This document shows, one piece after another, positions 21,152-28,952 of a stretch of DNA of 37,247 nucleotides. Position 1 is the stretch's first letter. Each line of letters begins with the position of its first letter. Source of the DNA: Maribacter polysiphoniae. Its GTDB lineage: Bacteria; Bacteroidota; Bacteroidia; Flavobacteriales; Flavobacteriaceae. The stretch covers positions 1 to 37,247 of the forward strand of contig NZ_QGGQ01000018.1 in the NCBI RefSeq assembly GCF_003148665.1, written 5' to 3'. The notes under the pieces were generated by a model, which saw only the letters and a program-made list of their open reading frames with translations, was not told where the DNA came from and made no database searches. The position numbers were made by a program, and so were the translations under genes.

Positions 21152-21217
21152 CAAAGCTATGGTATAATTTATAGGATAGGCTTACCACAATTACGGAATT
21201 ACCTACCATTATTACGG
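21152..21217 (-). promoter_or_regulatory. Tandem AraC-type operator and promoter of the cupin-to-IorB operon
   Basis: Two direct repeats TACCACAATTACGG (21,183-21,196) and TACCATTATTACGG (21,204-21,217) are 21 bp apart, two helical turns. On the minus strand 23 nt beyond them stands TAGCTTTG (21,152-21,159), an exact TAnnTTTG -7 box. The same arrangement with the same distances occurs at 28,887-28,952. Binding by the AraC protein encoded at 29,019 is inferred. Confidence 0.75.
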
Positions 21218-21394
21218 ATTACAGGAGTATAAACCATTTGTTCACAAAGCATTAACTAAATTCGAACAACAGTTTTCTTCAATGTCCAATACAAAAGATT
21301 AGATATGGGTCGATGATTATTCTTCCAAATATAAATTTAGGTACAGCGTATCCACCGAATGGTGAACATGATTTAACAGAAGGAAGTTAGATGA

Positions 21395-21562
21395 AAGAAA
21401 AACATTCAGGATAACCTGATTCATGTAGCGAAACAAAAAATATTTGCCCCTGTTAAATCGTTAAGTGAAATTACATGCGACCTTGGTTTTAAATACCCAC
21501 AGCACTTCACAAGACTTTTTAAGAAAAAGTGTGGTACACACCTCTGGAGTATCAGATTTTGA
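21395..21562 (+). pseudogene. Relic of an AraC-family regulator (C-terminal end)
   Basis: The + strand reads NIQDNLIHVAKQKIF.., then KSLSEITCDLGFKYPQHFTR, followed by LFKKKCG and a stop at 21,560. This aligns with residues 249-293 of the intact AraC protein at 29,019 (YIQNKLIEVAKERVF.., KSVSEIAYELGFKYPQHFTR). It opens after a stop at 21,392 and has no start, sensing domain or first helix-turn-helix; the C-terminal end is out of frame. It lies 180 bp from the duplicated operator, in the same orientation relative to it as the intact gene is to its own. It is a dead copy of the regulator gene. Confidence 0.8.
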
Positions 21563-21629
21563 ATTAAACCATGATACTTTCCTCGACCATTTAAAAAATA
21601 CTGATTTAAAAAAAATCTTAACTAGCTTT

Positions 21630-22421
21630 TTAACTTATACTATCCAAAGTTGTAACCTGTCTTGTCAAGAACGCTATCGATTTTTCCAATATATAATGGG
21701 GAACTTCCTTATGAGGGGAATGGCCTATTTTTGGGATTATGAGCTTCTGGGATAGACCGACCGTATTATTAACAATACTTTGCACTTGTTTTAGTGTACC
21801 ATATTCATCATCTTCTCCTTGAATTACCAAGACAGGACAAACGATATTCTTTAAATAAGATTCGATGTTCCAATCCTTAAAATCTTCCCGTAACCATGTT
21901 TGGGTCCAGGCCATGAACATGGCTTCGGTCTTGTCGCCATGGTATTTGGTTAATCTTGCCTTTAAGTCGGTCGTTTTGTATAATTCAACCGCCTGCTCAA
22001 TACCTTTTATGGTTATATCCTCTACAAAAACATGGGCACCCTCGGAGATTACTCCTTTAATTTTATCTGGATATTTAGCTGCCATTAAAAGGGCAATAGA
22101 TCCGCCATCACTATGTCCAAAAAGTACTGCATTTTCTATTCCCCAAGAATCCATGAGGTCATTTAAAATGTCGGCTTCAATTTCCATATAATCAAGTCCG
22201 CGAATATGAGATACAAAAGGACCGGATTTTCCATATCCCAGACGGTCATATACGATAACATTGCAGTTTAGTACTTGGCCCAGTTTCTGGGGAAAAGCCC
22301 TCCAAAGTGCTATACAACCCAAGGAATCGTGCAAAAACACAAGTGTGGACTTTTTTGGGTCACCATCAAATTTTATCCAGGAAATGGAGTCTATCAATGG
22401 TAATCTAAGTATTTTTTTCAT
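21630..22421 (-). CDS. Alpha/beta hydrolase, cytosolic
   Basis: 263 residues without signal peptide. The fold is clear: oxyanion region LVFLHDSLG, YDRLGYGKS, nucleophile elbow GHSDGG with S104, Asp in VIQGEDDEYG and catalytic His in IGHSPH. It resembles esterases, lactonases or C-C bond hydrolases of aromatic ring-cleavage pathways, but the substrate is not predictable. It is the last gene of the operon starting at 28,788, 24 bp after the ConA-like protein, and its end faces the AraC relic. No terminator was seen after it. Confidence 0.88.
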   Translation of the reverse strand: MKKILRLPLIDSISWIKFDGDPKKSTLVFLHDSLGCIALWRAFPQKLGQVLNCNVIVYDRLGYGKSGPFVSHIRGLDYMEIEADILNDLMDSWGIENAVLFGHSDGGSIALLMAAKYPDKIKGVISEGAHVFVEDITIKGIEQAVELYKTTDLKARLTKYHGDKTEAMFMAWTQTWLREDFKDWNIESYLKNIVCPVLVIQGEDDEYGTLKQVQSIVNNTVGLSQKLIIPKIGHSPHKEVPHYILEKSIAFLTRQVTTLDSIS

Positions 22422-22445
22422 GAAAAATTGACTAAAACTGTTATG

Positions 22446-27025: not shown

Positions 27026-27029
27026 TTCC

Positions 27030-27770
27030 TTACTGCTTTTTAGATTCCAATAATTCGTTCAATACTTTTTTGGCCGAATCAATTTTTTCATAATCTATAT
27101 TTCTTCCCACCATATCCACTAATTCCTGTAATTGAGTTGGCGTGATGCCCTGCATTAAACAGATGTTCATGTGCGAACGCAACATGGGTTCCACATCGCC
27201 GATCGTTGCCAGAACGGAAACCGTGACCAGTTCCCTTTGCTGATAATTCAGAATGTCCCGATCAAAAATATCCGCAAACAGATGCTCCTTTAAAAAGACT
27301 TCGACAATGGGGGCAAATTGCGCATAATCGGCCGGTGGGCCGTCCAATTTTGCCTGTACCAATGCTTCCAGATTCGCTTTGCCCCGTTCGTATTTTGTAC
27401 GGTTATCTTCTATTGGGGTAGCTTCCGCTCCTAGCTGATCTTCCACCCCTTCCGCCTTGCGTTCGTCCAAAACTTTGATAAACGTCTGTAAACCACGTAG
27501 GCTCCTTGGAAATCCGCAGTAGGCATACAGATGCACCATGACTTCCTTGATTTCGCTTACGGTCAATCCGGCATCCAGACCTTCCGTTAAAGCGGATTCC
27601 AAAGTTTGCAGGTCGCCTTTTGCGGTGAGTGAGGCAATGGCAATTATGGATTGTTGCTTCGCATCCAAATTCAAGATTGCATTATGTTTGGATTGGGCAT
27701 TCACATGATTTGTGACGCCAAGAAACGCAGTAATCACTATGGCAATACCAATTGTTATAAGCTGTTTCAT
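27030..27770 (-). CDS. Exported carboxymuconolactone decarboxylase-family protein, two domains
   Basis: 246 residues with a Sec signal (MKQLITIGIAIVITAFLGVTNHVNAQ). Two CMD/AhpD-like helical repeats follow: the first has SLTAKGDLQTLESALTEGLD, SEIKEVMVHLYAYCGFPR; the second has RELVTVSVLATIGDVEPMLR, GITPTQLQELVDMVGR. Only the first has the ExxxHxxxYxGxP-like motif; one Cys (YCG) is present but not the CxxC of AhpD, so a peroxidase-reductase role is unlikely. Classic PcaC is cytosolic and decarboxylates gamma-carboxymuconolactone; the exported type has no proven activity. It is the second gene of the operon, 34 bp after the aldo/keto reductase. Confidence 0.9.
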   Translation of the reverse strand: MKQLITIGIAIVITAFLGVTNHVNAQSKHNAILNLDAKQQSIIAIASLTAKGDLQTLESALTEGLDAGLTVSEIKEVMVHLYAYCGFPRSLRGLQTFIKVLDERKAEGVEDQLGAEATPIEDNRTKYERGKANLEALVQAKLDGPPADYAQFAPIVEVFLKEHLFADIFDRDILNYQQRELVTVSVLATIGDVEPMLRSHMNICLMQGITPTQLQELVDMVGRNIDYEKIDSAKKVLNELLESKKQ

Positions 27771-27804
27771 CCTTTTGCTATTATTTTTAATTTTTCGCTA
27801 CTTA

Positions 27805-28788
27805 CTAGCGGTTTATCATTTTCTGGTTCGCTTCGGAATAGCGTTCACCCACCAAATCAATCTTTGAGGTGGCCTCTGTAATTTGTTGCAGTTCCCAATC
27901 TGTAAAAGTAATACCGGTCGCCCCTAAATTTTCTTCCAGCCTTGAAGACTTTGTGGTACCGGGAATGGGTACGATCCATGGTTTTTGGTAAAGGATCCAA
28001 GCCAAAGCAACTTGAGCCGGAGTGGCCTCTTTTTCCTTGGCAAAAGCCGTAACCAAATCTACCAAAGCAAAATTATCCCTCAGGTTCTCTTTGGAAAATC
28101 GAGGCACGGTACTTCTAAAATCATTATCGGAAAAACTGGCGTTCCTATCTATTTTGCCTGTCAAAAATCCTTTCCCCAAGGGACTAAAAGGTACAAAACC
28201 AATACCCAATACTTCCAATACGGGCATGATTTCTTCTTCCGGCTCCCGCCAAAACAATGAATATTCGCTTTGCAAGGCAGTAACCGGTTGCTCCGAATGT
28301 GCTCTTTTGATTACTTCGACACCTGCTTCGGAAAGTCCAAAATGTTGCACTTTTCCCTCAGCTATCAAATCCTTAACCGTACCCGCAACTTCCTCAATAG
28401 GTACTTTTGGATCAACCCGATGCTGATACAATAAATCTATAGTATCTACCTGTAAACGCTGTAAGGAAGCATCCACCATATTTCGAATGGTTCCAGGACT
28501 ACTGTCCAAGCCCGTCACTTTTCCATCTTTATAACCAAATCCAAATTTGGTGGCTATGTGTACCTGATCTTTAAACGGTTTTAAGGCCTTTCCTACCAAT
28601 TCCTCATTAATATAAGGCCCATACACTTCGGCGGTATCAAAAAAGGTGACCCCCATTTCTACGGCTTTTCGGACGACTTGAATCATTTCCTTTTCGTCCT
28701 TCGCAGGGCCATATCCAAAACTCATCCCCATACAACCGAGACCGATATCTGATACTTTCAGATTCTTTCCTAATGTTCTTGTTTTCAT
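27805..28788 (-). CDS. Aldo/keto reductase, cytosolic
   Basis: 327 residues, first gene of the operon running to 21,630. The catalytic tetrad is D51 ([10 protein letters not shown]), Y56, K81 (ATKFG) and H123 (YQHRVD), with the NADPH-binding end [14 protein letters not shown]. Length and motifs match the YakC/AKR13-type family that reduces aldehydes and quinone-like carbonyls. It has no signal peptide, unlike its relative at 16,973. The ATG lies about 100 bp from the exact -7 box at 28,887. Such reductases beside AraC regulators (for example YqhD-DkgA under YqhC in E. coli) answer reactive aldehydes; that comparison is only suggestive. Confidence 0.93.
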
Positions 28789-28886
28789 TTTTTATTTTTA
28801 AAGATTATCCCAATCAGTTCATCATTTTTTAATCTTTACGGATAAAAATAGTGGCCGAAATCTTGTTCCCTTTTATAGGTTTGATA

Positions 28887-28952
28887 CAAAAGTAGGGGGT
28901 CAAAAACCAAATAGGCTTACCCAAATTACGGTTATACCTACCACTATTACGG
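28887..28952 (-). promoter_or_regulatory. Tandem AraC-type operator and promoter of the reductase-led operon
   Basis: Direct repeats TACCCAAATTACGG (28,918-28,931) and TACCACTATTACGG (28,939-28,952) are 21 bp apart. On the minus strand 23 nt beyond them is TACTTTTG (28,887-28,894), an exact TAnnTTTG -7 box, with no -33 TTTG at the usual distance, which fits an activated promoter. Sequence and spacing equal those at 21,152-21,217. The intact AraC gene starts 66 bp on the other side. Confidence 0.78.

Follow-up and report, generated by a model that had tools for sequence, protein, structure and literature searches.

At araI1-araI2, Escherichia coli AraC occupies two half-sites that form a direct repeat with 21-bp spacing beside the polymerase site; the operators of RhaR and RhaS are inverted repeats. 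For the AraC-type hybrid two-component systems (HTCS) of Bacteroides thetaiotaomicron, one study describes predicted operators that are direct repeats whose two conserved sites are spaced 21 bp apart on average, interprets these repeats as read by a dimer on one DNA face, and places several operons of one locus, sometimes together with a remote operon, under one regulator (PMC3878776).

The window analyzed here, a 37,247-nt stretch of the flavobacterium (Bacteroidota) Maribacter polysiphoniae (GCF_003148665.1, NZ_QGGQ01000018.1), carries two copies of a 35-bp element, TACCnnnATTACGG-N7-TACCnnnATTACGG. A preliminary description had reported two such elements, with direct repeats 21 bp apart, and a minus-strand TAnnTTTG box exactly 23 nt from each; both elements (0 mismatches) and both boxes are indeed present. 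The numbering of the box, -12 to -5, follows PMC9723704.

28918..28952, minus strand: putative operator copy 2; half-sites 28918-28931 (promoter-proximal) and 28939-28952 (distal), 21-bp period
28887..28894, minus strand: TACTTTTG, -7 box of the predicted operon 2 promoter, 23 nt from operator copy 2
21630..28788, minus strand: operon 2, nine genes (predicted extent)
29019..29930, plus strand: araC-type regulator gene, 303 aa; RhaR/AraC-like regulatory domain and AraC-type double helix-turn-helix
28968..28971, plus strand: TTTG, a -33 element candidate for the promoter of araC itself; offset matched in 18/118 sites
28993..29000, plus strand: TATCTTTA, 40 nt from operator copy 2; a -7 box candidate for the promoter of araC itself
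21183..21217, minus strand: putative operator copy 1; half-sites 21183-21196 (promoter-proximal) and 21204-21217 (distal)
21152..21159, minus strand: TAGCTTTG, -7 box of the predicted operon 1 promoter, 23 nt from operator copy 1
13111..21110, minus strand: operon 1, eight genes (predicted extent)
21404..21535, plus strand: remnant (C-terminal part) of a second araC gene, belonging to copy 1; 66% identical over 44 residues
21237-21248: TTTGTTCACAAA, beside copy 1

We put at roughly 85% the probability that the 35-bp elements are operators of one AraC-type activator subfamily and that the regulator encoded at 29,019 activates both minus-strand promoters. This regulator would bind as a dimer, one subunit per putative direct repeat, at about -36 to -70 of two predicted sigma-A promoters (the position assigned to copy 2 relative to its operon). 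Both promoters appear to keep the -7 box with no evident -33 element; we therefore propose that the bound regulator recruits RNA polymerase when a small-molecule inducer is present. Copy 2 would drive the aldo/keto-reductase operon; facing the other way, it would lie upstream of araC's own -33/-7 promoter. Copy 1 would formerly have served a second AraC of the same subfamily, whose gene decayed and whose operator stayed; most likely, both operons are now under the AraC that survives.

The two copies stand alone in their genome. A third element was absent from the window at up to 3 mismatches (100 shuffles also gave 0 matches), and the genome-wide search that had been suggested as a check returned only these two copies in 5.13 Mb, with no unrelated sites. 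The 80 AraC orthologue loci used for comparison, minus L114 and L127 (score 14), trained a search matrix; removal of 11 more loci with no CAAA at the box position and omission of 12 of the remaining 67 left 55 other loci for a 68-nt profile, R1, of box plus operator, which thus contains the box by construction, unlike the matrix. Against the genome, R1 gives the two copies 47 and 41.8 bits; the next-best match reaches 14.9 bits (E 0.14). The units had been called identical, which holds for the repeat geometry and the 23-nt box spacing but not for the letters: the 35-mers agree at 29/35 positions, the half-sites at 25/28 and the linkers at 4/7. They had also been called selected rather than merely copied. 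An AraC remnant beside copy 1 makes the units homologous, so that this opposition falls away: they were copied long ago and have probably been kept by selection.

What does the element belong to? Picked by protein alone (55-96% identity), the 80 orthologue loci carry the operator upstream of the AraC gene in 78 cases, 64-69 nt from the start codon in 69 of these; upstream scores of the 78 are 15-22 of 22, whereas the reversed pattern scores 11-14 and the opposite strand 11-15. An offset scan free of any motif peaks at 21 bp in 44/80 loci (runner-up 18/80), and the matrix finds 145 matches in 2.15 Mb (a count that takes in training sites and overlapping loci), versus 0 when reversed. Some low-scoring sites (e.g., L100:1669 and L238:6355) may be due to chance. 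Among 247 genomes, a site is present in 17 of the 18 that encode an AraC of at least 52% identity, versus 4/229 others; in two of the 17, G468 and G309, the site is weak (E about 1e-4), and that of G468 lies on a different contig from its AraC. The operator is absent from 59/60 AraC paralogues of 35-47% identity and from 37/39 other AraC-type proteins. In the family scan, the plain pattern at up to 3 mismatches has no discriminating power (42/299 genomes versus about 40 with the reversed control), and just 24 matches, those with 0-1 mismatch, carry information. One paralogue, L254, scores 17.7; it is a member of the L232 cluster, which has related sites. A general 21-bp rule for AraC proteins of the phylum was considered and rejected, as offset 21 occurs in 13 of 60 paralogues versus 13 for 24 and 12 for 27.

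In these sequence comparisons, the element goes with a single AraC orthologue group throughout Bacteroidota, and hardly any paralogues have it. Comparative genomics across the phylum likewise supports the earlier view that two direct repeats two turns apart, here adjoining the -7 promoter element, are an AraC-type operator. Since relatives across the phylum keep the paired switch and its exact spacing, we see here, with good support, a new case of a familiar type of gene control; a literature search of titles and abstract openings found no paper on the 35-bp operator or its AraC group. Could the element instead bind another regulator, with AraC a mere neighbor? The cluster encodes two candidates, the Crp-like and the 127-aa AraC-type proteins, and the site in L110 precedes an AraC of only 23% identity. 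Yet the site follows the AraC orthologues, as the 17/18 genomes attest; it is also present in L094 and L104, with no Crp-like or 127-aa homolog found in the DNA examined there; and the L110 protein resembles the 127-aa type in a locus that also has the usual AraC. This makes a different reader very improbable.

The protein encoded at 29,019 has a C-terminal double helix-turn-helix of AraC type (PF12833, E 2e-20; PF00165, E 1.4e-14) whose predicted structure matches the AraC DNA-binding domain (2k9s). No Pfam match was found in its N-terminal part, and no kinase or receiver domain in the whole protein, only HTH_18 and HTH_AraC; searched by sequence against solved structures, it has matches confined to the DNA-binding domain. 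Foldseek matches of the AlphaFold model (pLDDT 83.7, pTM 0.65) to the regulatory domains of RhaR and AraC indicate an N-terminal cupin-like regulatory/dimerization domain: the best single-domain match is RhaR (5u93_B, TM 0.71 by target), and the AraC domain (2arc_A), about 10-12% identical, gives TM 0.67 by target. The best full-length matches, Rns, CsvR, and ToxT, superpose poorly over the whole protein (rmsd about 21 A), so the domain arrangement of the model is tentative.

The promoter geometry bears on whether this regulator activates or represses. TTTG lies exactly 23 nt from the operator in 128/156 distinct sites, even though the box is outside the search matrix, and 70 of these have the full TAnnTTTG; at 22-23 nt, TTTG is absent from 12 of the 118 sites by an intact AraC and from 7/38 others. 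On the araC side, TAnnTTT is found at offset 39 or 40 in 100/118 sites adjoining an intact AraC, so that the operator would hold a fixed place also relative to araC's own promoter. This second spacing is what a repressor, or a regulator acting mainly on its own promoter, might show, with the operons derepressed rather than activated; the sequence is compatible with a repressor at the same place. We consider this quite unlikely, for the operon-side end of the operator is at about -36, beside the core promoter and not across it, and the operon-side spacing is kept at sites without intact araC (TTTG at 22-23 nt in 31/38). Furthermore, the 128 operator-box spacers have no TTG enrichment around -33, as expected, together with an operator ending at about -36, for an activator-dependent promoter. 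Abutting the -33 region at a fixed distance from TAnnTTTG, the operator would occupy a class II activator position at a Bacteroidota sigma-A promoter with predicted starts.

The genes that this activator would control begin, in operon 2, with an aldo/keto reductase, a CMD protein, a DLH-like hydrolase, a cupin, and an abhydrolase, followed by an ABM monooxygenase, the Crp-like regulator, a 3-keto-disaccharide hydrolase-like protein, and an abhydrolase; this last trio (21630-23886) is missing here in L063, L065, and L142. Operon 1 comprises genes for a cupin+DUF4440 protein, a DUF4440/SnoaL protein, a carboxylesterase, an aldo/keto reductase, the 127-aa AraC-type HTH protein, a flavodoxin, a 2Fe-2S subunit, and a molybdopterin oxidoreductase. 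The count of 17 genes (9 + 8) presupposes unbroken transcription, which is only tentative for the trio in operon 2.

What became of the regulator of copy 1? An intact AraC gene had been noted beside one of the copies, correctly for copy 2; the remnant beside copy 1 had been missed. The AraC of copy 1 is broken or gone in 6/6 aligned loci: the window and four relatives retain a fragment, and none is detectable in the fifth. More broadly, 38 of the 156 distinct sites, copy 1 among them, have no intact AraC alongside, and extra operator copies recur in the same kind of gene cluster without a neighboring regulator. Copy 1 might thus be a fossil, uneroded beside its dead AraC, its promoter either constitutive or fed by read-through: operon 2 runs toward copy 1 along the same strand, its end lying some 400 nt upstream, with only a weak terminator-like stem (21419-21406) in between, and the flanks of copy 1 are also well conserved. 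Against this, none of the 28 half-site columns varies among five genomes with copy 1 and the box is invariant, compared with 2/7 variable linker columns, a test that is weak alone because the next 60 nt vary in only 6 columns. The L144 and L150 clusters, with no intact AraC at the promoter, keep 26/28 and 24/28 half-site letters and 6/6 box letters each but only 12/23 and 8/23 letters of the 23-nt spacer, and extra sites recur in several families. Comparison thus shows retention of the operator beside a dead AraC, and a fossil is unlikely.

A recent duplication of the copy-2 unit was rejected as the origin of copy 1, as the window AraC is a poor match of the copy-1 remnants: among intact AraCs it ranks 12th for the window remnant, 49th for L063 and L142, 56th for L064, and 63rd for L065, and the remnant in L064 shares 83% identity with the L075 AraC versus 72% with the window AraC. 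The ranking for the window remnant is nearly flat (67.0 versus 68.2 bits), so the rejection rests mainly on the relatives. The lost AraC was, as far as sequence tells, another lineage of the same subfamily; one surviving regulator therefore probably serves both operons. Visual alignment matches the flank of copy 1 to the flank of an AraC in L166 that is intact and 55% identical. TTTGTTCACAAA, found at 8/8 related sites without intact AraC, may mark a second regulator's site; alternatively, it may be left over from the promoter region of the dead araC, since a near match is also found in L166, whose AraC is intact.

These observations prompt a broader proposal, to which we give about even odds. 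With the operator and its two-sided spacing nearly unchanged across Bacteroidota, regulators only about 55% identical would remain interchangeable; a redundant regulator could die because another reads the same switch. Operons would then carry the switch with them from genus to genus, and regulons would fuse when a regulator is lost and its operator kept; the window, with two operons, one live AraC, and one dead AraC of another lineage, may be such a fusion. It offers a clear candidate for a regulon that has grown because a redundant regulator was lost, within a gene cluster that moves horizontally. A widespread Bacteroidota AraC group now has a testable operator, with more than 100 natural variants and sharply different paralogues without the operator, making the DNA reading code of AraC in this phylum directly testable; so are the rules of spacing at activator-dependent promoters that lack a -33 element. 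In L232, a diverged regulator in which helix 1 is kept and helix 2 is not points to helix 1 as the reader of ATTACGG and to helix 2 as that of TACC.

How does this system relate to its closest counterparts? With the predicted HTCS operators of B. thetaiotaomicron, the window operators share the 21-bp direct-repeat geometry and the assignment of several operons to one regulator. By contrast, the window regulator is a one-component, 303-aa protein without kinase or receiver; the letters here are conserved across six named classes, the sites are fixed relative to boxes on both sides, and the targets are redox and hydrolase genes, not glycan utilization. From the RhaR/RhaS type, to which its modeled regulatory domain is closest through RhaR, it differs in having direct-repeat operators. 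With E. coli AraC it appears to share both domain order and 21-bp direct-repeat geometry, but the operator letters are different, the promoter is of the Bacteroidota kind, and the regulatory domains share only about 10-12% sequence identity.

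Two 35-bp elements, copy 1 (21183-21217) and copy 2 (28918-28952), match the pattern given in the preliminary description with 0 mismatches and at the positions it named; a third was not found at up to 3 mismatches in the rest of the window, and the genome-wide pattern search that it proposed as a check (5.13 Mb) returned the same two and none besides. The description had also called the two units identical: the pattern is shared, full identity is not (29/35 positions match between copies), and the copies are alike rather than identical. The features around them are as follows.

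21152-21159, minus strand: box TAGCTTTG, exactly 23 nt from copy 1
21404-21535, plus strand: C-terminal AraC remnant adjoining copy 1, 66% identity over 44 residues
28887-28894, minus strand: box TACTTTTG, exactly 23 nt from copy 2
28968-28971, plus strand: araC-side TTTG, with the box at 28993-29000
28993-29000, plus strand: araC-side box TATCTTTA, the TAnnTTT match in the window
29019-29930, plus strand: intact AraC-type gene, 303 aa, adjoining copy 2

On the minus strand, nine tightly spaced genes, aldo/keto reductase first, lie downstream of copy 2, and eight, from a cupin+DUF4440 gene to a 2Fe-2S/molybdopterin oxidoreductase pair, downstream of copy 1. Several of the proteins have signal-peptide-like N-termini (translations judged by eye), and the products therefore likely form a redox and hydrolytic route that is periplasmic in part. 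Predicted operon 2 (after copy 2) closes with a Crp-like/3-keto-disaccharide hydrolase-like/abhydrolase trio (21630-23886), possibly inserted there and separately controlled; it is missing at the same place in three loci (L063, L065 and L142), in which the ABM gene adjoins the AraC remnant. Predicted operon 1 (after copy 1) includes a 127-aa AraC-type protein (16547-16930) with a helix-turn-helix and no sensor domain; L110:5722 encodes a full-length protein whose helices are similar.

Is the element conserved with the regulator? Among loci picked by the AraC protein alone (the best 80 of 586, 55-96% identity), the 22-letter pattern of the preliminary description scores 15-22 upstream of AraC in 78/80, against 11-14 for the reversed pattern and 11-15 on the opposite strand, and lies 64-69 nt from the AraC start codon in 69/78. 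A motif-free test, in which offsets of 15 to 40 were compared by their best 14-base self-match, favours 21 bp, with 44/80 loci (runner-up offset, 18/80). The wider consensus in these loci is TATACAgATTACGG-N7-TACCATTATTACtGAT, with more information in the promoter-distal repeat (20.8 bits) than in the other (18.0 bits; column sums). Named records with the site beside an intact AraC represent six classes.

Adding 20 loci and removing duplicates of the 157-nt context left 156 distinct sites: 118 neighbour an intact AraC, 9 a fragment, truncated or distant AraC, and 29 none, shares that reflect sampling around AraC genes or pattern matches and are not genome-wide rates. On the operon side, exactly 23 nt separate the -7 box TTTG from the operator at 128/156 sites, with every other offset at 9 or fewer; the full TAnnTTTG is present at 70 of the 156, the first letter of the box often being G outside close relatives. 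Since the sigma-A box of F. psychrophilum is reported to span -12 to -5 (PMC9723704), the operator would span about -36 to -70. TTG near -33 is not enriched in the operon-side spacers, which fits a promoter dependent on an activator; a -33 TTTG element is described for B. fragilis and, by the account in PMC7366714, was not identified in F. johnsoniae. On the araC side, 100/118 AraC-linked sites have a TAnnTTT separated from the operator by 39 or 40 nt. Because the spacing to the boxes is fixed on both sides, the operator holds a constant place at two divergent predicted promoters, an arrangement absent from the preliminary description. At L171:9995-10113, the stretch separating an AraC from a divergent aldo/keto reductase contains two tandem operators.

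How specific is the site for this AraC group? A matrix built on the 78 orthologue sites gave 145 matches in 2.15 Mb, training sites and overlapping loci included, versus 0 for the reversed matrix. The site is lacking at 59/60 paralogues of 35-47% identity (matrix score -14 or lower) and at 37/39 other AraC proteins (below -4). The exceptions are L148, whose AraC is a 54% orthologue; L110, where the site precedes a distant AraC and the usual AraC is also in the locus; and L254, which belongs with L232, a locus with a 42% AraC and three variant sites spread over 10 kb. Across 247 phylum genomes, the site is found in 17/18 of those with an AraC of at least 52% identity (weakly in two, G468 and G309) and in 4/229 of the remainder, the AraC and site samples being equal in size and taken as one set from shortened lists of the genomes without a match. 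Family-wide, the plain pattern does not discriminate at up to 3 mismatches (42/299 genomes versus about 40 for the reversed control); at 0-1 mismatch, 24/24 matches fall within clusters holding an AraC homologue.

The window's AraC is of the one-component type rather than a hybrid two-component protein: Pfam finds only the AraC-type helix-turn-helix, and the AlphaFold model (34 sequences; pLDDT 83.7, pTM 0.65) matches the regulatory domains of RhaR and AraC and the DNA-binding domain of AraC. The top-ranked full-length structure matches (Rns, CsvR, ToxT) have an rmsd near 21 Å, and the relative placing of the domains in the model is therefore tentative. In the recognition helices, F234, G235, K279 and H283 are kept in 94-100% of 124 distinct orthologues; 15 paralogues mostly differ at these positions. 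L232 is a natural specificity variant: its 42% identical AraC retains helix 1 (NYFGDLVKKETG) and not helix 2, and its three sites have TTACTG or TTACAG in both repeats and the distal TACC changed to TAAC or TATC. This one case suggests ATTACGG as the target of helix 1 and TACC, nearer the promoter, as that of helix 2; E. coli AraC has the same helix/box polarity relative to the promoter. The variant operators in L232:502-16000 are of the TATTCAGATTACTG type, and every one of them has TAnnTTTG 22-23 nt away.

Extra sites occur in Flavobacteriaceae, Weeksellaceae, Sphingobacteriaceae, Hymenobacteraceae, Spirosomataceae, Prolixibacteraceae and Marinilabiliaceae. One genome (G414) has three at a single AraC locus and a further site on another contig, ahead of an aldo/keto reductase. 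In another (G411), a 5.3-kb contig (L226 = G411:C119:1-5313) carries sites, and an AraC of this group was not found in the genome at E 1e-40: either the regulator is missing from the assembly or the sites are truly orphan.

At copy 1, the operator's own AraC is broken or gone in 6/6 aligned loci; in L062, where the sequence is strongly different, a remnant was not detectable. Half-sites and box show 0 variation over five of the six loci, in which the linker varies at 2/7 columns and the following 60 nt at 6/60, by itself a weak sign that the operator is retained. L144 and L150 share the copy-1 promoter without an intact AraC and keep 26/28 and 24/28 half-site letters but 12/23 and 8/23 spacer letters, respectively. 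AraCs from other lineages resemble the copy-1 remnants no less closely than the window's own AraC does, with a clear difference in their favour for the remnants of L064 and L065, and by eye the flank of the remnants lines up with the flank of an intact AraC of 55% identity (L166). It is therefore most likely that copies 1 and 2 are old and represent distinct units of a single subfamily. A near-palindrome, TTTGTTCACAAA (21237-21248), lies 19 nt past copy 1 and recurs at 8/8 related sites without an intact AraC, L144 and L150 included; it could have been left behind by the promoter of the dead araC, or it could be the site of a second regulator.

Over 4,444 nt, DNA identity between the copy-2 genes (24345-28788) and their counterparts in G080, a genome of a different genus, is 96.2%, versus 78.3% for the rpoB-containing region; the gene pair at 30828-33990 shares 99.3% identity with Croceivirga lutea (L065). 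Two same-genus genomes (G258, G032) match the rpoB-containing region at 84.6-84.7%; the two AraC genes of this group in G258 are only 78.4% and 72.6% identical to the window's, and none was found in G032 at E 1e-40. Given these identities, 13111-29930 and 30828-33990 appear to have been acquired horizontally, and the cluster most likely moved between genera carrying both operators and the dead AraC.

For the AraC-type hybrid two-component systems of Bacteroides, predicted operators are described as direct repeats spaced 21 bp apart on average; they are interpreted as dimers two turns apart and sometimes serve several operons (PMC3878776). The window's element is of the same kind; unlike those systems, as PMC3878776 presents them, it has a one-component AraC as its probable regulator and operator letters that are phylum-wide. 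A description of this operator was not found among the titles and abstract beginnings listed by literature searches.
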